From contig NOKP01000006.1 of assembly GCA_002682825.1 (NCBI GenBank), positions 62,001-126,000 of the forward strand: DNA of 64,000 bases. The letters are read 5' to 3'. The stretch is from Neonectria sp. B-13. Lineage: Eukaryota; Ascomycota; Sordariomycetes; Hypocreales; Nectriaceae. The notes beneath the pieces are model-generated. The model was given only the letters and a program-made list of their open reading frames with translations, was not told where the DNA came from and ran no database searches. This document shows positions 27,346-62,274 of this stretch, in pieces. The translations under genes were made by a program, and so were the position numbers. How positions within the stretch are numbered: position 1 is the first letter of the stretch; each line of letters opens with the position of its first letter.

Positions 27346-27660
27346 GATCCACTCAATCATACACCTCACACCTTAGACCTATCCTATACCCTTAGGTTAG
27401 ACCCGACTGTTACACTTTTTATCTCAAGCTAAATAGACTAATTTTAAAAGTGGTCCTTAGCTAATAAAAATACATGAACGCTAGCACCTTATCTAAACCT
27501 CTATATCAGCTGGCCCTGATATATTAAATATTTTAAATACAATATAATAAGCTAATAAGATTATTTTATAATATATCTTACTATATAATAGAGGATTAAA
27601 AGTATAAATTGATTAATCTCTAGCCTTCCCAATTCACAGGAAGCCTAAATAATATATACC
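27346..27660. other. AT-rich boundary without a gene
   Basis: Composition is mixed and nothing was recognised. It separates the copia element from the gene island. Confidence 0.5.
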
Positions 27661-28362
27661 TTAGTGATAAGATCGCCCCGATAGCTGGTCCCGCCTAGAT
27701 GACTAACGGCGACCAAGCCGCTCTAGCGCTGCTTCCTCAATAGGCGCGTCACAAGCACTCATTCCCTGAGATGCACAGGCGCATGCTCCAGCTACAAGAA
27801 GGGCTGTGATAGGCTCAACAGCGATTCCCTCCCCGCTAATGCTGCTGGCTATGACACTGACCACAGCAAGCTCATTACCTCAAGTGGCGAAGACTTCCGT
27901 CTGCAGTGCAGACACTACTATCACAGCAATAGCGCCTAGAAGGTTAAGGGCGCAGATAGTATGGCTGATTGCGCTAAGTGCTATGCTGGCGACGCCAGAT
28001 GCAATAGAGCCAACTAGCTGGGTCCCATCACTAGCTACTACTTCCATCCTTCAGTATAAAACAACGGCCACCCCATGGGCTTCTTCCGAGATGCTAGATA
28101 TGATGCCCTGCTGCCTCAGAGCCAGAGCTTGCCCGATTTTAAGAATGTTCAGAAGGACAACCCCAAGATCACATTGCAGGACTGGTAGATGTTTCGAATG
28201 TCGAGACCAAGTGACCAATAGTTATGGCGGCTTCACAGTATACAAGCACTTACTCCCAAAGGCGATTGGGGCAAGCCAAAGGGAAGGGCCGGAAACTTTT
28301 GTGAGACACAGATGGATTTTGGAAATATCGCAGTAGGACTATCAGAGAATGAAAAACCGTGA
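27661..28362 (+). pseudogene. Broken gene, possibly PAN/apple-domain secreted protein
   Basis: One plus-strand frame to TGA 28360-28362 is protein-like but carries several in-frame stops (for example at the TAG after HYYHSNSA, at 28015 in RAN*LGP, and in QDW*MF). The readable part has a Cys pattern (FRLQC, then DCAKCYAGDARC, then a YYFHP block) resembling the PAN/apple fold of fungal secreted proteins. The C-terminal segment has KGDWGKPKGRAGNFCE. The assignment is tentative. Two stops replace expected Trp codons (TGG to TAG), consistent with RIP spreading from the adjacent element. An overlapping 176-codon open frame in another register is considered a shadow. Confidence 0.45.
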
Positions 28363-28408
28363 AGGAACATTTCATCAGCCTTGGAGGTCACTGCTAGTGA
28401 GCCTACCT

Positions 28409-29996
28409 TCACTCATCGTTCTCCGACTGGAGCAGCTCTCTTTCCGCCTTGGTTCCTTTCCAGTCGATCATTCGACACGCCACAGGGATCACAGCCGCCA
28501 GCACCATACCCGCCCCTAAGAATCCAGCAGTCACCCCAAAGCCAATGTGATAGCCAGGTGCGTTGTTACTCTTCCAGATCCTGCTCCCGTAGACGCTCGA
28601 GAAGTTGCCGAACGCGTTAACCAGGGCAAGAACAATGGCGCGTTTCTCAGGAGGCAGGCTAATGGTGCCGCTGGTCCACGAGAGAATCAACGGCAGCGCT
28701 GTCCAGATACCGGCGGCAACAAAGCAGATCATGACGTACCGCACCATGGCGGTCTTGACGGCGGTATATACAATGCTGCAGGCGAATCCTACTGTGAGTG
28801 CCCCCGCGATGTGCCATCGTCGCTCGGCGTTGCGGTCAGAGGACCACGCAACAATGTTGAGGCATATCGCGGCCACTGCGTAGATGGGGACCGTCATGTA
28901 TTGCGCCTTGACCGTCTTGTAGCCCAAGGATACGGTGATAGTGGGGATAAAGTACGAGATGGTGCCAGCGCCGACGTCGAGCATGAACAGCACAAGGAAT
29001 AGGTATGTGCGTAGGTCGGCTATGGCAGCAATGAAGGCGTCCCAATGACCCAGTTGTCGCTGGCTCTGGCCATTTGTGGCGATTCCATCGTGGATGATTC
29101 AAAGCTTGGCCAGCTGTTGCTCTGAGGCACTGAGACGCATCAACGTCTCAGGATAGTCGAGCAGGATGAAGAAGGCGCAAGCCGCAACTCCTACGGTCGC
29201 AACGCCTTCGATGATGAAGAGCCAGCGCTAACCAGTTATCCTGTGGACATTGTGCAGATTTGAAGTGATGGCACCCGCAAGGAGGCCCCCGAACGCACTG
29301 GACAGCACTACGGCAGTGTAGAAAATGGCGAATCGCTTGCCTATTATGTTGTTGTTTCAGATTAGTGTCTCTTCATCTCGACATATGTCATTCTTGCTTT
29401 GATGTACCTAGCTTGGCACGGGTGTACCAACAACTCAGGAGATACAGTACGCTAGGGAAGAAACTAGCTTTAATGCATCCCAGAACAAAGCGGAACCCCA
29501 GAAGAGCGCTGTAGGTCTTGGAGATGGACATCAGAGCACTTAGAGCCCCCTAGATGAGCATAATAGTCAGGAGGAAGATAGATGGTCGGCTGTAGGAGAG
29601 AATTATGTTGGAGGGAACCTTACAGATGAGGTATCCAAAGAAGAAGACAGAGAGGACCCATGTATAATCGTCGTTGGAGAGATTAAGCTCGGTTTGCATG
29701 CCTGCAATCTTAGTATTTCCCTAATTTCAATCATGTGTTAGTTTGTTGAGTTGTGCCTGGATGAAGAGTGAAAAGGGGGGAGCTGGTCATACAATGTTGG
29801 TCCTGTTGATGTAATTCAGAATGTATATGATCTAGAGAATCGGCATGAGAAACGAGTCAATCTTCCTGATGAGTTTCTTCTCCTCGGCAGTGTTTGGAAC
29901 ATAGTCTCGAATGGCTTGCATTATGTCATTGTCCAATGTGCCGTCGCCATTGCTGTGCTCCTTCAACTCCACCGATTCCTTCTTTCCGTAGTCCAT
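28409..29996 (-). pseudogene. Dal5-like MFS anion transporter, inactivated by four nonsense codons
   Basis: The minus strand encodes a typical allantoate-permease-family (anion:cation symporter) MFS protein of about 482 codons. Three exons run from ATG 29996: 29996-29793, 29720-29408 and 29340-28409, with introns of 72 and 67 bp and normal GT-AG ends. Readable blocks include IRKIDSFLMPIL, NYINRTNI, WVLSVFFFGYLI, GFRFVLGC, RWLFIIEG and FMLDVGAGTISYFIPT. The C-terminal six-helix half is fully open. Stops occur at 29834-29832 and 29230-29228 (both where Trp is expected), 29552-29550 and 29101-29099 (CGA to TGA type). Next to a regulator and a sugar-acid enzyme, the functional ancestor probably imported an organic or sugar acid. 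That substrate is an inference. Confidence 0.78.
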
Positions 29997-30590
29997 GGTT
30001 ATTTTTGTCGGCCCAACGACTTCACGTTGAGCAGTTGAGAAATGAATTGGTGCGGATGAGAAAATCCATCGAGGAGCAAAGGGGTGGTTTAAATAAGAAT
30101 ACCCATGCGAACCTGCTGGTTTTCATTATCCGGGAGCAAGCAGCAGCAAACTTCGTCAATTGTCGAAAAGGGTTTGCCGCCGTCGTGGAGGCCGAGTTCG
30201 TTCCCCACGGGGATTGCGGGGAAGGGAACAGTGAGAGCATGTTCCCCATAGCGGTCTTCGCCCCGATTGGATCGGCCCGCACTAGAACACCACTGAGTTT
30301 GATTGAAGCCAGGGGATTTGTTGGACGAAAATAATGCGACATGCACAGGACTATTGCGAGTGGGTCCGCGCGAACAAGACCGCCGTCGGGGCCGAGATCA
30401 AGATGTAACTCGAGGTTGCATCTCTTGACTCGTGTCATGCTACGAGGTCATGCGTATGGGATGTTACTTTGAGACTAGGCGGGCCTCCGTATCTGGAAGA
30501 GATGCCTTGGGAAATGTAGAGCTTGTGGGCTGGTGGTAAAGCTGATCGATCATATTGTGACAGTCATCAGTACGATCTAGGTCTGTGTAT
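29997..30590. promoter_or_regulatory. Intergenic region between transporter and regulator
   Basis: This GC-normal stretch holds the presumed promoter of the transporter (minus) and the 3' flank of the regulator. One CGG-N8-CCG site lies at 30252-30265, but its spacer (TCTTCGCC) does not match the consensus of the divergent promoter, so it may be chance. Confidence 0.35.
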
Positions 30591-32702
30591 TTACTCTGGC
30601 AATTGCGCCTGGAGAATATCCAACATGTACAGGGGATCCTGTTCCATATCCGCATCATGACCCGCCGTCTCTCCACCGAACACCCAAGTAGTCCAGTCTG
30701 TGCCTTGCCATCCGTATCTCTGGTCCTCGGTCCACGGGACAGTGGGCTCCTGGTTGCTTGTCTGACTTGCCAACTGGCTGTGCATCTCACGTTGCTTGAG
30801 CTTCTGTAGCATGCTGTTGAGTCCTCGTCCGATGTAGTGCGCTACATGACGAACGCATTGCCGTGTTTCGTCCAGCAAGACGACCGTTCTCTCCATGAGG
30901 CCTACCACGTTCTCGTCACGCAAAGCGAAATTGGCTTGCTTCCAGTGCAGCTGCACCTTCATCAGGAACATGCACGCATATGCAATGGTGGTCAGGAGGT
31001 ATAGAGGCACGCCAATCACCGCCCTTCGCATGTCGGCATCGTCGAGGATGAGGCTCAGCGCTGATGAGGCGCTTTCTATCGCCATGTTGATGAAGTTTCG
31101 CCGCTCTGACGATATCACAAACTGAGCTGAAGGGCTTAGTCCGCGGAGGCACATTGAAAAGAGTTGCAAACGGGCAAAGTGATAGTGGAGGATGACTCCC
31201 TTGGCCGGATAGTTGGAGATGCGGTGATCAGGTTCTGGGATCGAGCGTCATTACTAGTTCCACGCGTATGGACAATGTAATTATTCCAAGAAGAAAAGCT
31301 GCCATCTTGAACCAAATTTCAACGCGCTTACCTAGACGGCTTTCCCAATGCTCCCTCCACCGACCTAAATCGATGTCGTATCGCCGAAGCGCCTCAAACT
31401 CGTCGTTGGCAACCAGCCGCGATCGATCCGACCCGAACGTGTGGAAGACACGGCTGAGAATGATGAAGACGCCCACCTGGCTATGCAGGCGGAGGTCAGC
31501 CTGCGTGATGCCGGGAAGCCGCAGCAAGCTCTCGTGGTCCGTGATGGTGGCGTCGTCGTGAATCACCGGTGGACGTCCGTAGGCAATGCTGAAGTGGTGG
31601 TCGCAGACATACAGAAAGTACCACAGCCTGGCCTTTTCAACGTGCTCGCTTGAGGCACCCTGGAGGGCCCTGGAGCAGAACTGGTGGAGCTTGAGCTCAG
31701 TGGCGATCCGCACGGCCAGCCCAGAGAGCTTCCAGCTCACGTCGGACAGCCAGAAGGCGCCTATGCAGAGGCCGCGGACGTCGTCGAGGGTGTAGTAGCG
31801 CTTGAAGACCGACTGGCTGGTGAGCTCCAGGAAGATGGGATAGCACTTGTCGAATGTCTTTCCCTGGTCCTGCGCGTGCAACGCCGTGACGGCCAGGATT
31901 GCCGCCGTCAGCAGGGTAGACGAGGCCCGCGTGTCGGCCAGCGTCTTGTGAACCAAGGCTATACCACCCCACAGGTACGCATTAAGTGTTCCACAGAACG
32001 TGGAGAACAGGCCTTCGGCTTCTTGAAGACCGACTTTCCCCTGGGAAATGAAGTCGGGTTCCTGCTCCTGGGTGGACCTGTGGCTGGTGGCACCTGGGTC
32101 GCTCCGAATGTTGCGCAGCTTGGTGACCTCAAAGAGACTTGCCATGGGGGCATTTACGATGGCTTGCTCCGGTGACTCGTGTGTCTCTGGCTCCGACGAG
32201 TTCTCCCTCGTCATGGCCGTGACATCGGACGGCCGGATGGGTGAAGTTGAATTTGCTGGTGGGCTCGCCTGTATTGTGAAACTCTGACTATTATTCCCCG
32301 CCGGCAGCAGATGAGTTGGCGAGAGGTTGAGATGGCTCTGGAGCTGAGCGACTGTAGCCTGCAGACTTTGGATGTGCAGCTCCATCTGATCTTTCCACTC
32401 ATTTTCGCCATCGAGGATCGTCTGCAGACTCTTGTTCACGACGCAGTCTAGACCGAGCCGAAGGCATCGTGAGCAGCGCGTCTGCCCAGGTTCAACGCCG
32501 CACTTGATCTTGCGGTTCTGGCACTCCTGGCCTAGACATGCGGGCGCGTCACTTGCATTAGCGCCCCGTTGCAAATGGGGGCAAAACGGCTGGTCTACTA
32601 CTTACAAGCACGGACTTTTCTGGAAATCTTGGGCAAATGACCGCCCGCGTCGGTGGGATCCCTGGGATCCTTGGCCACAGCGTCGAACCGGGTGCGTTTC
32701 AT
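30591..32702 (-). CDS. Zn2Cys6 transcription factor with fungal-specific transcription factor domain
   Basis: The start is ATG 32702-32700 and the stop TAA 30593-30591. Three exons (32702-32606, 32531-31332, 31234-30591) with introns of 74 and 97 bp give 646 residues. Splicing intron 1 completes the first Cys of the binuclear cluster: C33-x2-C36-x6-C43-x8-C52-x2-C55-x6-C62 (ACQECQNRKIKC, then CSRCLRLGLDC). A coiled-coil-like linker follows. The middle homology region is visible (GLCIGAFWLSDVSWKLSGLA and RLWYFLYVCDHHFSIAYGRP). It is a nuclear DNA-binding regulator expected to bind CGG triplets as a dimer. It is divergent from the sugar-acid enzyme and shares its 483-bp promoter, so it is probably the pathway-specific regulator. 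There are no stops or frameshifts. Confidence 0.88.
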
Positions 32703-32778
32703 CGTCTCACAGGCATGGATCGTCGTCTAGACCAGCGTAGCCTCGGCATTTGGCGGGTCTCCCGTGGTCCTGTGGCAA

Positions 32779-32792
32779 CGGAACAATGGCCG
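32779..32792. promoter_or_regulatory. Candidate operator site A, CGG-N8-CCG
   Basis: CGGAACAATGGCCG: inverted CGG half-sites with an 8-bp spacer. The spacer shares the R-AC-R-ATG core with sites B and C. Confidence 0.65.
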
Positions 32793-32823
32793 AGTGGCGG
32801 ACAAGGGAGGATGGAGGAGAGAG

Positions 32824-32837
32824 CGGGACGATGACCG
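32824..32837. promoter_or_regulatory. Candidate operator site B, CGG-N8-CCG
   Basis: CGGGACGATGACCG: same architecture, 45 bp from site A. Confidence 0.65.
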
Positions 32838-32879
32838 AGGCGAGGGCCGCCTTGACAACTAAATAGACGATGGGATGAG

Positions 32880-32893
32880 CGGACATCGTTCCG
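32880..32893. promoter_or_regulatory. Candidate operator site C, CGG-N8-CCG (inverted orientation)
   Basis: On the minus strand it reads CGGAACGATGTCCG, matching sites A and B in the non-palindromic core. It lies 56 bp from site B. Confidence 0.65.
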
Positions 32894-33185
32894 GCTCGTC
32901 TCCACCACCCCCTCACTCCCTGCGTTCATTGGATTCGCATTCCCCAACACGCTCTACTCGGTTTGTATTAGGGGGATATTTATTATTGGATGGATCTGCA
33001 GCACATGGACTGGGGAATTTACCTTCTATATGAGAAAATAATACCAACTTATCCCTCGAGCCTTCACTTTTTTATGCGAATTCCTCTTTTCCTTCTCCTC
33101 TATTCCATTCCCCGTCTACGTGGCCCTGTTCGAACCGTCTTTTACAGTCGACACTTGAGCGTTGAATCTCTCTTTTACAAAGGCC

Positions 33186-36100
33186 ATGGCTTCCCCCGTT
33201 GGTGATGCGACGCGTGTTGGCTTCGTCGGCCTAGGAGCCATGGGTCTTGGCATGGCATCTAATCTCTCGGCCAGTTCCCGGTATCTTGTCGAGGGTTATG
33301 ATGTCTATGAACCCAGCGTCCAGAAGTTTGTCGCCCAGGGAGGCCGCGCCGGCAAATCAGTAAAACAAGTCGCTGACGGGAGTGACTTGTTGGTATGCAT
33401 GGTGGCCAACGCTGCGCAGCTCGGTCATGTCCTGTTCAATGAGCATGACGGTGCCGTACAAGGTAAACACAGTCCGATTCCCTTCAGCCAGCATGCCGCT
33501 TACTCAAAGTAATTAGCCTTGCCAATCAATGCCACAATCCTTATCTGCTCGACCGTCAGTCCCACATTTCATGAGACGCTGGCTGCTCGCTTGGTCCGGG
33601 CAGGGAGGTCGGATATTTCCATGGTAGACTGCCCTGTCTCTGGTGGCACGAAGCGTGCAGCTGAGGGCACCCTGTCCATTTTTGCTTCTGGGACGGCCGA
33701 AGCCATTTCCAAGGCTGATCAGGTCTTGCACGAAATGTCTCAGAACTTATACCTCATACCTGGAGGGCTCGGTGCTGCGAGTAAGGTCAAGATGGTGAAC
33801 CAGCTTCTCGTGGGAACTCACATTGCCGCCGCTGCCGAAGCCATGGGCCTCGCAACCAAGGCTGGCCTGGATACCCGTGAGGTCTATAACATTATTAAAA
33901 ATGCGGCTGGAAACTCGTGGGCCTTTGAGAATCGCGTACCTCATATGCTCGAGGGAGATTGGACCCCTCATTCGGCGCTCGACATATTCGTCAAAGACAT
34001 GGTAAGCTACTGGTGCCCCGATGACCCCTTTTCGAACCAAACTGTCTAACCTCGAATTTCTAGGGCATTGTGGTATCCACGGCTCGCGAGCTCCACTTCC
34101 CAGTTCCTCTATCTTCGGCAGTAGAACAGCTCTATATATCTGCGTCTTCCCAAGGCTATGGAAGGGAAGACGACTCTGGCCTGGTCCGACTCTTCCTGCC
34201 TGGGAATCCCAGCGGAGTCCAGCAGAGCGCCAACATGGGACCCTCAACAACAGACTTGACACCAGCCAGCACTCCATTAGAGATTTCTAAGGTCGGCATG
34301 ATTGGTCTTGGGGCCATGGGACAAGGCATTGCAGCTTCCCTCCTTCGTGCAAGGTACGCGGTGCAGGGCTTCGACGTTGCCAAAGGAGCAGTCGACAAGT
34401 TCTTGTCCAAGGGCAGCAAATCATCCAAGGCCAATTCCCCAGCAGAGGCGATACTAGACGCAGAAGTCGTCGTCATCATGGTTCAAAACGCTGCTCAGGT
34501 CGATGATATTTTGTTCGGCTCCGGAGCAGCGGCAGAGTCTTTAATGTCGGGTGCAACAGTGATCCTCAATTCGACGGTGCCACCCTCGTATGTGAAAGGC
34601 TTGGAGAAAAGGCTCGTTGGCCTAGACAAAGGCATCAACTTGATCGATGCCCCCGTCAGTGGAGGCGTCGTTCGAGCAGAGAGGGGCATGCTGACGGTTG
34701 GTCATTCAGATGCTAGATACCGGTGTTTTGCGCTAACCTCATCTCAGGTCATCTGCTCTGGAGATGGTGTCGCGATATCCAAAGTCAAGAACTTACTGCT
34801 TGGGATTACTGGAGTCTCTAGCAACTTGTGCCACGTCCAGGGAGGTGTCGGTGCTGCCTCTTCGGTCAAGCTCATCAACCAACTGCTGGCTGGAGTTCAC
34901 ATTGCCTCTGCAGCAGAGGCAATGGCCTTCGCCGCCCGTCTGGGCATTGACACAAGGGCACTATTCGAAATACTCAAGGGCGCAGCTGCTTGGAGCTGGA
35001 TGTTTGAGAATCGAGTCCCTCAGATGCTTGATGCCGACTGGACTCCGCACTCGGCGCTGGCCATATTTGTCAAAGACCTAGGAATCGTTTTGGACGAAGC
35101 CAAGCGTTGCCTCTACTCGGCCCCGATCTCGGCTGTAGCACATACGCTGTATGTCTCGGGTGCCGCTCATGGCCTTTTGAGCCAGTCAGACGCAAGTGTA
35201 GTTCGACTATATGAGCTCGTGACGGGCGTCTCTGTTGCCGAGCATGCCGGCAAAAGCAAAGATTCCTTCTCTCAGAGGGACGAGCCATCTGCCACTACTG
35301 GCACCTCAGGTCATCAAGAGCCACAGCCTCTCCCTGCCCAGAAGACGCTCGAGTCACTACCGCCAGAGTACAGCTCCAATGTCATCAGCTCTATCCAAAA
35401 CGTCGTTGGTAGCGGAGAGGTTCCCGTTTTGGTGGTTTTGGATGATGACCCGACTGGAACGCAGACTTGCCATGACATTGACGTGTTGATGACTTGGGGT
35501 GCCCAGGCGCTTGAGGACCAATTCAGTCTCGACACACAAGGCTTCTTTATCCTTACAAACTCCCGTGCGCTCCCATCAGCCGAGGCTCAGCAGTTGATCC
35601 TTGAAATATGCACAAACGTGAAGCAAGCAGCCGAGAAGATGGGCAAAGCGGTCGAAATCGTTCTCCGCGGTGACTCCACACTGCGTGGCCATCTACCCGA
35701 GGAGCCGAAGGCTGTGGAAGACGCCTTTGGCGAGTTTGACGGCTGGATCATGGCGCCCTTCTTCTTCCAGGGAGGCCGATACACTATTAACGACGTTCAC
35801 TACGTCAAGGAGGGAGACATCTTGGTCCCTGCGAGCCAGACTCCCTTTGCCCAAGACGCCACGTTCGGTTACAAGAACTCTAATCTGAGGGACTACGTTC
35901 TAGAAAAGTGTGGCTCTCGCTTCAACCGCGAATCATTTGTCTCGATAACTCTCGAGGATATCAGACTTGGAGGACCAGCCGGTGTTGCACAGAGGCTTCT
36001 GGCAGCCCCAACCGGGTCCAAGACAGTTATTATTGTCAACGCAGCGGCCGAGTCAGATATGCACGTCTTTGTCTCTGGTCTTCTAGCAGCTGAAAAGGAG

Positions 36101-36766
36101 GGAAGGCGATATCTCTTCCGCACCGGGGCGGCGTTTGTGTCTTCCCGGCTGGGAATAACGGGCATCCCGCCTCTCCGACTGGAAGACCTCGGTGTCTCGC
36201 GCAATGACACCCAGCAGCCAGGTGGCTTGATCGTTGCGGGCTCCTATGTCCCCAAGACAACTGCCCAGCTCAGAGTTTTGCGAGAGAGGAGGGGAGTCAA
36301 GCTTTCCGTTATTGAGCTGGATGTTCCCAGTCTTATTGCTTCACCGGAGGCTGCAGAGGCGACTGTTCTAAAAGGTGCGGCTGACGCGTCAAATGAGTTG
36401 GCAGCCGGCCGCGACATTCTTGTCATGACATCGAGAGGGTTGATCAAGGGACAGGATGCAATCAGCTCCCTAAATATCGGTGCCAAAGTCGCCCACGCCC
36501 TTGTTCATCTAGTCAAAGAGATACACGTTCGGCCGCGATACATTATAGCCAAGGGCGGCATCACCTCGTCCGACACGGCAACTAAAGGACTGGGAATGAA
36601 AAGAGCAAAAATCCTCGGACAGGCCGCTCCAGGAGTGCCTCTATGGAGATGCGACGAAGAGACAAGTCGCCATCGCGGCGTGCCATATGTTGTCTTTCCT
36701 GGAAATGTTGGAAGCGAAGAGACCTTGGTAGAAGTAGTAGAAGGGTGGGCGACAGCTAGTAAGTAA
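33186..36766 (+). CDS. Fused tetronate-catabolism enzyme: two HIBADH-like dehydrogenase domains plus four-carbon acid sugar kinase
   Basis: The start is ATG 33186; a TTG 24 bases earlier is not credible in a eukaryote. Exons 33186-33462, 33517-34001, 34064-34696 and 34748-36766 encode 1137 residues. Introns are 54, 62 and 51 bp. The last is in frame and recognised by its GCTAAC branch site and by interrupting the GMLT-VICSGDG strand. Domain 1 (1-300) has GLGAMG at 15-20, DCPVSGG and catalytic Lys184. Domain 2 (330-630) has GLGAMG at 335-340, DAPVSGG and Lys506. Domain 3 (685-1137) is an OtnK/DUF1537 kinase with DDDPTGTQ starting at 697 and an AKGGITSSD motif. By family it should oxidise threonate/erythronate-type acids and phosphorylate the oxo product in the cytosol. 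Many fungal relatives, as I recall them, end with a class II aldolase domain. This one stops before it. Confidence 0.85.
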
Positions 36767-54199: not shown

Positions 54200-54341
54200 A
54201 ACGGCAGGTTCGATGAATGTGTGGAAAAAGAGGAAAATCGCCATATTGAGAGTTGAAGCTGCGCGGGCTGTGGCCGCGATTTTTGGTCATGCGGAGGGGG
54301 TGCACGGACCATAGCGCCCTTATAGTGATACTCCAGATTAC

Positions 54342-56135
54342 ATGGCGAGTCTCATCCAGCCTCATACATACATCCCTCTTCACAGCTGGGGCGTAATGCG
54401 TCTCCTGAGAGCAGAGACTCTTCGGTTTGAAGAGTTTATCGGCGACAATATTCCAGAGTATGCAATACTATCCCACCGCTGGGAGCAGGATGAGCTCTCG
54501 TACCAGGACATGTGCAGAGTAATCGAGCATGGCAAAGTGGCGCCAGGAACGAGGCATATTCAGGAAAAGCAAGGCTTCCGCAAAATCTACAACTTCAGTC
54601 GCCAGGCATTGAAATGTGGCTATGAATATGTATGGGCCGACACCTGCTGCATCGATAAATCCAGCAGCGCCGAACTCCAAGAAACCATCAACTCGATGTA
54701 TCAGTGGTATGAGAGCTCCAGAGTCTGCTATGCCTACCTCTACGACGTATCTATCCCTACTCACAGCGGCAACCCACTTGGCAGAGGCCTGTCCGCACCA
54801 GGATGGATCAAGTCCTTCAAGGCGTCTCGATGGTTTACTCGGGGCTGGACACTCCAAGAACTCCTAGCCCCACGGAGTCTGGTATTTTTTGACCAGAGTT
54901 GGAAGAAGTGTGGCACCGCCAGTGACTTATATAAAGTCATCAACACAATTACAGGCATAGATGTCCGAGAGGTCGTCAGAGATGTGGGCCGAGATGGTCC
55001 AAGGTTCTGGCCGCTTCGAATAGCGAGGCGTATGTCCTGGGCCGCAAACCGGCAGACCACTCAAATCGAGGATCGAGCCTATTCGCTCCTTGGGCTCTTC
55101 GATGTCAACATGCCGTTGCTCTACGGCGAGGGAGAGCGAGCATTCCAGCGTCTACAAGAGGAAATTCTCAAGGTCGATGAGGATGCCTTCATTCTAGCGT
55201 GGAGCTCTACGGAAGCTGAGGCGGGATTCGCGCCTAATGGCCTAGCCAGGTCACCTACTCAATTTCACAAGTACTCGGGCCTAGTGGACCTAAAGAGCAC
55301 CCGTTTCCGCTATGTGGGTTTTAATCCAACAATGATACCACGAGGCCTCCAGGCGACATTGAGGATCCGGAGAGATCTGAACGAACAGGTGCTCGCATAC
55401 GCTGTTTTAATGACCGAAGGAGACCAACGCTCTAGATGGTCGAAGTCCCTAATACTTCCTATTATGTTCCCTGAATTAAACTTCTTACGGTCGGATATAG
55501 AGAACGAATGCATCAGGTTCTCGAATCCCCTTTGGGTTCCATCAACTTTTGTTACGGAAGCTAAGCCAGAGCCCGTTTGCTTCATCAGACAGGTGCAGGC
55601 TGCGGATGTGAACCCCAATAGTGACGGTTTGAGCCTTTGCTCAGCCGTGTGGAGGGATTACGTCACGACATTCACATATCCTGTTCAAACGCAGCCTGGA
55701 CGTCGCCATTTTCCTGCCCTTTTTGGTGGGTTCTCCAAAAGCTCGGGATGGAAAAAGGGCGGCCGCATCTTCGTCCTGGAATTAGCTGCTCGTGCCCAGG
55801 CAGCGCAGAGGTTCGTTGTTCTAGTCGACTATCAAGTGAAAGGCAGGAAAATGGTCGAGGGCCCAACTGTTACAGTCATCAGGCTGCAGCGAGCGATAAA
55901 TCTGGCCTATGCTGCGAAGTTGGCGAGATTGAGGAAACTTCGATGTGGCTTTGCTCTATGTAATCTCACCGATTGTAACGGCAATTTGATTCCCACGGAT
56001 GAAATTGTTTGCATCAGTAGTTTCTACAGTTACTGGATTCATGCTAGGGATGACGATTTCGAAAAGTTACCGGTTCGCCCAGTCAGGGAACCTGAGACCA
56101 AAGGTCTTGTTGCGTCGATGACTGACCTTGTGTGA
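54342..56135 (+). CDS. HET-domain (heterokaryon incompatibility) protein
   Basis: An uninterrupted 597-codon frame starts at ATG 54342; Met19 in MRLL is an alternative start. The HET domain covers about residues 39-190: YAILSHRW at 40-47, VWADTCCIDK at 97-106, then QETINSMYQWYESSRVCYAY and the WFTRGWTLQELLAP block. It is followed by the usual IEDRAYSLLGLFDVNMPLLYGEGERAF extension. The C-terminal half is family-variable and has no recognised domain. HET proteins trigger programmed cell death on non-self fusion. The allelic partner is unknown. GC composition is normal and there are no stops, although the flanking NLR and transposon are dead. It is probably a functional single gene without introns. 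Confidence 0.88.
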   Translation: MASLIQPHTYIPLHSWGVMRLLRAETLRFEEFIGDNIPEYAILSHRWEQDELSYQDMCRVIEHGKVAPGTRHIQEKQGFRKIYNFSRQALKCGYEYVWADTCCIDKSSSAELQETINSMYQWYESSRVCYAYLYDVSIPTHSGNPLGRGLSAPGWIKSFKASRWFTRGWTLQELLAPRSLVFFDQSWKKCGTASDLYKVINTITGIDVREVVRDVGRDGPRFWPLRIARRMSWAANRQTTQIEDRAYSLLGLFDVNMPLLYGEGERAFQRLQEEILKVDEDAFILAWSSTEAEAGFAPNGLARSPTQFHKYSGLVDLKSTRFRYVGFNPTMIPRGLQATLRIRRDLNEQVLAYAVLMTEGDQRSRWSKSLILPIMFPELNFLRSDIENECIRFSNPLWVPSTFVTEAKPEPVCFIRQVQAADVNPNSDGLSLCSAVWRDYVTTFTYPVQTQPGRRHFPALFGGFSKSSGWKKGGRIFVLELAARAQAAQRFVVLVDYQVKGRKMVEGPTVTVIRLQRAINLAYAAKLARLRKLRCGFALCNLTDCNGNLIPTDEIVCISSFYSYWIHARDDDFEKLPVRPVREPETKGLVASMTDLV

Positions 56136-60035: not shown

Positions 60036-61846
60036 ATGGATTCCCAACAGCTCTCTAGCCAGGCGGCAGTCAACGCATACGATGACAATGGCTTCATTCG
60101 TATTGATGACAGCCGCCGTGAGCACCCAGCTGATAACACCTGCCGGCCGATACATGATCCGGTCCGGGATCGCGGTCACAACTTCGAGCCGATGGTCATT
60201 CCAAGCCGGGTCTTCAAGATAACAGCCCTGCCCCCAGAGCCGCTATTACTTTTCCAGAAATTCCTACCTATTTCCTTAGTGGAAAGCTGGGTCTGTTATA
60301 CCAACAGCTGGGTCAGTCACCGGCTGAAACAGCATGAAGATGGCAGCTGCAGATTGAAGCCACAGTCACGGCTGTTGACTTGGAAGCCGACCTCTATTGT
60401 AGAAATCTACATATGGCTTGCAATCCTGATGTATATGCGAATACATTAGGAGCCATAGATCAAGGAATATTGGAAGATTTCTACAACCAAGGACCAACAC
60501 CCTATCCACCCAGTGACCAAATGGATATCTTATAACCGCTTCCAGCTATTATCCTAGCATCTTCACATCTATAACTTTGCAACTATTAATCAGGACCCTA
60601 ATACAAGCTTCTACAGCCGCACCTTTATCCAGGTTAAGGCATGGTCTGACTACATACAGCATACATCTACTATTTTCTACATACTAGGCACATATATTGC
60701 TATAGATGAGTGCATGGTCCACTTTCTCGGAAGGTCCCTAGAGACAACAACTATCCCTTTGAAGCCAATCCCCATAGGATTCAAAGTCTGGGCTATAGCC
60801 CAACAAGGCTATTTCCTGCGGTAGATTTAGCGCCGGCCAGGCCGGAAGTTCGGGCCCGTAGGGGTCCGGCCGGCCTACCAGCGCCTGCCGTCACAGCTGC
60901 GGCGGATGCAGCAGAGCCGGCAGCTATGGGAGAGGAATATGACCCATCTGAACCCAACCCAAGCTGTAGTTGTTGCCCTAGTATATCTGCTGCCAGAGTC
61001 CACATACCACATATTTCTCAATAACCTATTCTCTTCCTGCGACCTCTTCCACCGGCTCCAGCAGTATGGCCACAGAGCTACTGGCACAGCCCGTAGGAAC
61101 TATAGTATCTACAAGCCCCTTATCAAGCTCAAAGACACAGATAACACAGCTGCCGGCAGCCTCGAATTCAATGTCATCAAAGCTATCCCTATAGCTGACA
61201 ATAAGGTCAATCAGATTGCTTAGAAAGACAATGCCCTTGTATTATTTCTATCAACTGTATTCAAGGGCAATAAAAGACTGAACTATAAGAGGAAAAGACC
61301 AACAACAGACAAAATACAGGCACAGCCAATACAGCGTTTCTTTGGTGACGAGCCTGTCAAGCTGATTTCTATCCCATTCATCACTGCTATCTACAACAAT
61401 GAGATGAATGCTGTAGATCGAGGCGACCAAATGCGAGTGTATTGGGGCCTTGACCGCCGTGTACGCAGGGGCGGCTGGAAGGCCCTAGCTTGGGACTTCC
61501 TGCTAGAAATAGCCCTAGTCAACAGCTTCATCTTACAGCAACGGGGGCAGCCGCAGTGGAAGCCGGAGGCATCACAAGGCAGTTGGCGGCAACGCCTTGT
61601 CAATGACCTTATTACAACGTATGCATCTGACAGTCAGTCACGACAGAGGTTTCGGACTGGGGACGAATTTACGCCTGTCTTACAGCACAATTGGGTCCGG
61701 AATAAGAATCCCTCAGCTTGTCAAGCTTGTAAAGGAATACGGCTTGGAGAGGCGCGGCCACAACAGCCGTTGAGACCAGTCAGCGGAAATAGAGGCCAGA
61801 GACCCAAGCAGTCACGATACCGCTGTCAGCAGTGTAATGTAGCTCA
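60036..61846 (+). pseudogene. PiggyBac-type (DDE_Tnp_1_7) transposase, inactivated
   Basis: The plus frame from a plausible ATG 60036 gives the fungal piggyBac-like transposase: FKITALPPEPLLLFQKFLPI, WKPTSIVEIYIWLAILMYMRIH, YNRFQLL, then the DDE core. The first Asp is present (AIDECM, 60705-60707). The second is replaced by Asn (HIFLNNLF, codon AAT 61020-61022, expected FLDNLF). The third is present (NAVDRGDQ, 61416-61418). Four TAG stops interrupt it: 60447-60449, 60822-60824, 60828-60830 and 61221-61223. The last three stand where Trp is expected. The Cys-rich C-terminus begins (YRCQQCNVA) but breaks off near 61846. It is a dead copy of a cut-and-paste element. Confidence 0.78.
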
Positions 61847-62274
61847 AACTTCTGTGTGGCGTACTGCACATCATTCCAGGTGTTACCATCAAGAAGATCT
61901 GCTTGAACTTCAGCATAGACCTCTGGGGTCTGAGACTCTGTCTGATCATCGCGCTCCTCAGCACTCTAGGCGTTGACTGGTTCCTCGTCATAATAGGCCG
62001 GCTCAGTGTCGATTATTCCCGAATCACCATCTTCATGACAAGGGGTGATAAAAGTGTCCCTAGAAGAGATTTCATCGGGTCCAAACTCCCCAGTATTGGT
62101 CAACAAACTGTCCTCTGGCTCCATCGGCACATTCTCCACCACACGCTCAACTATTCGAGATAACTCTGCTTGATTCGCTTTTTGTCGCTGCCGGAACCTC
62201 TGGGTACGTTCCGCTTGCAGGCGACGTTGACGTTGCGCAATGGGGTCGTGTTCGTCAATAAATCGGAAATTCAT
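61780..62274 (-). pseudogene. Unidentified broken gene abutting the transposase
   Basis: A minus-strand frame from ATG 62274 reads MNFRFIDEHDPIAQRQRR, then LQAERTQRFRQRQKANQAEL, a basic arginine-rich helix. An acidic stretch follows to TAG 61968-61966. The same frame stays open beyond the stop to 61782 (EVYAEVQADLLDGNTWNDVQ, then YATQKFEL), so the stop is probably a mutation. Homology-like text ends about where the transposase C-terminus is cut, so one element was inserted into or joined to the other. The basic N-terminus recalls mobile-element proteins, but I do not recognise the family. The longer open frame to 62340 depends on a TTG start. Confidence 0.35.

Follow-up and report, generated by a model that had tools for sequence, protein, structure and literature searches.

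Three copies of one CGG-N8-CCG palindrome lie between a Zn2Cys6 regulator gene and a divergently transcribed fusion enzyme gene of Neonectria sp. B-13. Their clustering exceeds chance, and they probably form the pathway-specific operator (UAS) of the adjacent regulator within a bidirectional promoter, a candidate element for control of the enzyme, the regulator itself and a transporter. The window analyzed here is the whole stretch of 64,000 nucleotides, and positions refer to it unless a contig or locus is named.

From start codon to start codon, the divergent promoter region spans 483 bp (32703-33185). The predicted operator sites are CGGAACAATGGCCG at 32779-32792 (plus strand), CGGGACGATGACCG at 32824-32837 (plus strand), and CGGAACGATGTCCG at 32880-32893 (minus strand). 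All three match the consensus CGGRACRATGNCCG without a mismatch, and their spacers, read in one orientation, agree pairwise at 5, 6, and 6 of 8 positions. The first-pass annotation had proposed just such an arrangement, with sites starting at 32779, 32824, and 32880, the last inverted, and a shared spacer core, and both parts of that proposal are borne out. The sites lie 77-191 bp from the start codon of the regulator (32702) and 293-407 bp from that of the enzyme (33186), and no open frame longer than 90 aa was found overlapping them. By eye, the 12-bp flanks of the three sites have no evident common extension; thus, selection on the 14-mers is a better reading than duplication of a longer segment.

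How readily such a cluster arises by chance was assessed with dinucleotide shuffles and in real sequence. At least three CGG-N8-CCG palindromes occurred in 19 of 20,000 shuffles of the intergenic sequence and in 7 of 20,000 shuffles of its GC-rich part (32703-32920); when the three also had to carry similar spacers, the counts fell to 1 and 0 of 20,000, respectively. Three copies of some CGG/CCG arrangement, at any spacing and with direct repeats included, appeared in 22% of the intergenic and 17% of the GC-rich-part shuffles, so counts of half-sites alone are not significant. In a test that accepted any three palindromes within 130 bp that shared one spacing n of 4-20 and whose spacers, read in one orientation, were at least 62% alike, no match was obtained in 20,000 intergenic shuffles or in 300 shuffles of the 9-kb island that holds the cluster. 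This bears out the earlier remark that the trio would be hard to explain by chance. Applied to 152,833 real bases of the genome (the window plus 19 further stretches; L003 falls within L014, so that 3,014 bases enter twice), this test picked out only the trio and a single cluster elsewhere, on contig C53, the latter in a repeat of Arg-Asp codons within a 422-codon frame. The window as a whole contains eight CGG-N8-CCG palindromes, against 1.57 expected from whole-window shuffles, and none of 100 such shuffles reached eight; local tests were used because the window mixes AT-rich with GC-rich stretches.

The gene to the left of the sites (30591-32702, minus strand) encodes, in a spliced model of three exons (32702-32606, 32531-31332, and 31234 to the stop), an intact Zn2Cys6 regulator of 646 aa with no internal stops. 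Its cysteine cluster, CX2CX6CX8CX2CX6C, fits the CX2CX6CX5-12CX2CX6-8C pattern of the class, and both expected domains are recognized (Zn_clus, 30.3 bits against a cut-off of 21; Fungal_trans, 29.1 bits against a cut-off of 23). The DNA-binding region, together with an NKSLQ-type linker, is conserved in 72 of the 88 alignable homologs among the best 120 listed. A search of solved structures gave weak matches to LAC9 (1cld, E 0.003) and LEU3 (2er8, E 0.0045; 2erg, E 0.0092). Several homologs are named "Transcriptional activator of proteases prtT" in public sources; control of proteases of the prtT type was set aside, as this name appears to be automatic and the neighboring genes point to sugar-acid catabolism. 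The regulator is conserved and, judged by open-licence PMC papers, seemingly uncharacterized.

The gene to the right (33186-36766, plus strand; exons 33186-33462, 33517-34001, and 34064 to the stop) encodes a fusion enzyme of 1154 aa as modeled. In Pfam, it consists of two NAD_binding_2/NAD_binding_11 units of the 3-hydroxyisobutyrate-dehydrogenase type followed by SBD_N and NBD_C, which together make up a DUF1537-type kinase. The divergent regulator/enzyme pair described by the first-pass annotation is therefore real, as gene models and Pfam give an intact regulator and a fusion enzyme. Among NCBIfam models, both dehydrogenase units match L-threonate dehydrogenase best (329.7 and 277.7 bits, neither reaching the cut-off of 350), and the kinase part matches D-threonate kinase weakly (60.9 bits, cut-off 450). 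We infer that the enzyme acts on L-threonate or a closely related C4 sugar acid. The model is longer than most close homologs (1104-1141 aa among many listed), and by eye the second dehydrogenase unit is longer than in a homolog at about 34700-34760, where the model perhaps misses a small frame-preserving intron. A scan of viral contigs with the first exon of the enzyme found no relative.

Ascorbate breakdown in plants yields L-threonate as a major product. Plant homologs among the matches listed share about 44-45% identity with the enzyme over 97-100% of its length. In Arabidopsis, LTD (AT1G18270), which has been studied by way of mutants only recently, is reported to be needed for L-threonate dehydrogenase activity and L-threonate metabolism (PMC12540250). 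As LTD is described in the passages available from that paper, the fungal enzyme shares with it two tandem LtnD-like units followed by an OtnK-like kinase, but differs in having no C-terminal F_bP_aldolase domain (PMC12540250); a Pfam search of the 1154 aa for PF01116 gave no match. If the pathway is the same, another gene must therefore supply the last step in the fungus. Contigs C39, C45, and C60 carry PF01116 genes, that of C60 in a mirrored pair. As possible partners, these genes gave no matching spacer core: the regions upstream of the C39 and C45 aldolases have one N8 site each, with spacers unrelated to those of the trio, and the C60 locus, taken as a whole, has a single N8 site. Two of these loci have features of their own. 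At L039 (G000:C39:1494000-1500000), an LtnD-like dehydrogenase adjoins the aldolase, and further frames resemble dihydroxyacetone kinase and triose-phosphate isomerase by eye; this is perhaps another sugar-acid cluster. At L041 (G000:C45:344026-347796), the aldolase is divergent from a frame that by eye resembles an RpiB-type isomerase, and an MFS match lies about 3.4 kb away.

The cluster sits in a GC-rich island (about 27500-36500) with AT-rich flanks whose TA/AT ratio is raised, as repeat-induced point mutation leaves it. Elsewhere in the window, a long frame at 54315-56135 resembles a HET-domain protein, and frames at 60558-61976 resemble a piggyBac-type transposase split over several frames, both by eye.

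Conservation of the gene neighborhood was judged from locus tags in protein names, taken from the best 120 proteins of each search (584, 552, and 519 over threshold); most rows in two of the lists had no usable tag and were counted neither for nor against. Among the matches listed, regulator and enzyme have consecutive tags in at least seven species: Stylonectria norvegica (6518/6517), Verticillium albo-atrum (4397/4396), Cosmosporella sp. (103900/103910), Conoideocrella luteorostrata (2325/2324), Claviceps citrina (7573/7574), Cadophora sp. M221 (16065/16066), and Pseudogymnoascus sp. 03VT05 (2493/2494); in Fusarium nematophilum they are two apart (45/47). Regulator and transporter are likewise consecutive in at least five species among the matches listed, namely Conoideocrella (2325/2326), Cylindrodendrum hubeiense (3699/3700), Fusarium ambrosium (4805/4806), Cordyceps javanica (5345/5344), and Coniosporium apollinis (3545/3544). 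In Aphanocladium album, Akanthomyces muscarius, and Purpureocillium takamizusanense, the tags of enzyme and transporter differ by two, so that one gene could fit in between; in Metarhizium acridum they differ by three. Taken pairwise, these tags place regulator, enzyme, and MFS transporter close together in at least 16 species among the matches listed. Conoideocrella, the sole species with tags for all three, has them in the order enzyme, regulator, transporter, as in the window. Epichloe bromicola is a counter-case, with enzyme (7328) and transporter (5117) far apart on separate contigs.

In the window, the clustered MFS transporter gene (28409-29996, minus strand, spliced model) is broken, with four in-frame stops before its end. 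Its last exon still matches MFS_1 (35.1 bits, cut-off 33.4), and full-length relatives are up to 80% identical among the matches listed. A relative on contig C20 of the same genome has no stops in its exons as matched and is 84% identical to the broken copy over the last-exon piece compared, which spans 196 of 197 residues; searches of the genome with the regulator and the enzyme gave no match on C20. Upstream of the broken copy lies a single CGG-N8-CCG site, CGGGGCGAAGACCG (30252-30265, minus strand), with two mismatches to the trio consensus, and the promoter of the intact C20 copy has CGGAGTGAAGTCCG (L049:2359-2372) at the same aligned place. The sites stand 255 bp (broken copy) and 211 bp (intact copy) from the transporter start codon. 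The two promoters are identical at 338 of 530 ungapped positions (64%), and the N8 pair, at the same columns in each, is the only CGG-CCG pair over spacers of 0-24 present in the two. Such retention is not improbable, because 4 of the 13 CGG and 5 of the 9 CCG trinucleotides of the broken-copy promoter recur at the matching columns of the other. A looser consensus, CGGRRYRAWGNCCG, fits both transporter spacers and those of the trio. As this consensus was drawn after the fact, and as single N8 sites are common (53 in 88,833 further bases, or 0.6 per kb, in a sample enriched by loci chosen for having one), the transporter-promoter site is support rather than proof. Its presence in both promoters suggests a regulon that may work partly in trans and reach the intact transporter on C20. 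The combination of a broken clustered transporter, an intact copy elsewhere, and a promoter site kept in both is new here.

The first-pass annotation had recommended a genome-wide search for the motif. In 60.9 Mb, CGGRACRATGNCCG has 13 exact matches and its reversed pattern 9, and a looser consensus, CGGRRCRAWGNCCG, gives 36 against 30; the motif is thus not enriched, and its use as a guide to a genome-wide regulon was dropped. Three of the 13 exact sites are the trio, two lie on C53 in the Arg-Asp codon repeat, two lie on C72, and the others are single. An exact site falls inside an open frame of more than 500 codons in at least four loci (L002, L005, L009, and L011). L005 and L012 are reverse complements of each other, and the two C72 sites thus represent a single site within a mirrored duplication. 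On contigs C20, C50, C60, and C72, many matches occur twice, mirrored on one contig (for example, at 90601 and 1732005 on C50), a pattern that resembles inverted duplication, either genomic or arising in assembly.

A second, divergently evolved cluster at L035 (G000:C50:84500-94499) has an MFS transporter, a Zn2Cys6 regulator, a stand-alone DUF1537-type kinase, and an oxidoreductase of Gfo/Idh type by eye. Its regulator is 55% identical to that of the window over the best stretch, and the figure for the kinase is 58%. The promoters of its regulator and kinase hold no N8 site, and its gene arrangement and DNA-binding region differ from those of the window; its divergent oxidoreductase/transporter promoter has one N8 site with an unrelated spacer. 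The DNA-binding region of the C50 regulator is 33% identical to that of the window regulator, compared with a median of 73% for the 72 homologs with the NKSLQ-type linker, and the C50 protein has no linker of this type. A different binding site is therefore to be expected, and the locus is a poor test as a stand-in for orthologs.

Zn2Cys6 proteins of this type typically bind as homodimers with one zinc cluster on each CGG, and the linker and coiled coil set the spacer. By this model, each CGG-N8-CCG palindrome would be occupied by a homodimer of the adjacent regulator, whose linker and coiled coil would fix the 8-bp spacer, and the spacer core R-A-C-R-A-T-G would contribute selectivity. The regulator would respond to an inducer, probably L-threonate or another C4 sugar acid related to it, and would then activate the dehydrogenase-kinase gene on the other side of the promoter and probably also its own. 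The single, weaker site in the transporter promoters could extend the regulon to uptake, including the intact C20 copy in trans.

Could the sites serve a different protein? It is unlikely, in our view, that the trio consists of operators for another zinc-cluster regulator such as a ClrB-like protein: CGGN8CCG is cited as a putative ClrB site in Aspergillus niger (PMC8313289), but the trio has a common spacer core beyond the bare palindrome and adjoins the gene of a Zn2Cys6 protein. We give about the same low weight to a purely autoregulatory or repressing role, in which the sites serve for binding of the regulator close to its own start and play no part in activating the enzyme. The trio does lie nearer the start codon of the regulator than that of the enzyme; against this reading, the enzyme is a conserved neighbor of the regulator, and a similar N8 site stands upstream of the transporter. 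At 293-407 bp, the sites are also no farther from the enzyme start codon than is usual for upstream sites in fungi.

Least probable is that the trio is a functionless product of GC-rich DNA or a relic of short duplications. The frequency with which shuffles yield some CGG/CCG arrangement three times (17-22%) and the lack of genome-wide enrichment speak for it, yet no shuffle in 20,000 gave three similar-spacer palindromes at any spacing of 4-20, flank similarity beyond the 14-mers is not evident by eye, and one copy is inverted. An operator of the adjacent regulator remains the preferred reading, and the first-pass interpretation of the sites as an 8-bp-spacer operator of a divergent regulon is thereby supported. 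A broader proposal is more tentative, and we hold it at somewhat below even chances: that a dedicated C4-sugar-acid regulon, probably for L-threonate from plant ascorbate breakdown, exists across Sordariomycetes and some Leotiomycetes and Dothideomycetes, is run by this regulator through CGGRACRATGNCCG-type operators, and in this genome acts in trans on an intact transporter that was relocated, the copy in the cluster having decayed. For a widespread but poorly named regulator family, this provides a testable hypothesis as to which sugar acid induces and which site is bound, and plant-associated fungi may use L-threonate as food.

Searches of open-licence PMC papers by title and start of abstract found nothing on this regulator/operator system and no paper on a fungal L-threonate pathway, in a collection outside which most subscription journals fall; six locus tags, mostly of relatives, occurred there only in work on Beauveria pexophagy. 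Among classical systems, Gal4, Put3, and Ppr1 recognize paired CGG triplets at spacings of 11, 10, and 6. The window system resembles this type in its six-cysteine cluster, Fungal_trans domain, and inverted CGG half-sites, and differs in an 8-bp spacer with a common asymmetric core. The likeness to prtT lies in the name given to several homologs, and the neighbors point to sugar-acid catabolism rather than to proteases. CGGN8CCG itself is already in print for other regulators: besides the putative ClrB site, it is the site that the authors suggest for GliZ at gliA of A. fumigatus (PMC4006717), and it lies within a fragment bound by BcSpd1 in EMSA in Botrytis (PMC9280406). The trio shares half-sites, orientation, and spacing with all three, but its regulator and targets are others, and the passages available from those papers give no core like R-A-C-R-A-T-G. 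The likeness to ClrB lies in the spacing. What is new is the proposed assignment of an operator with this core to a conserved, seemingly uncharacterized regulator of an LTD-like sugar-acid enzyme.
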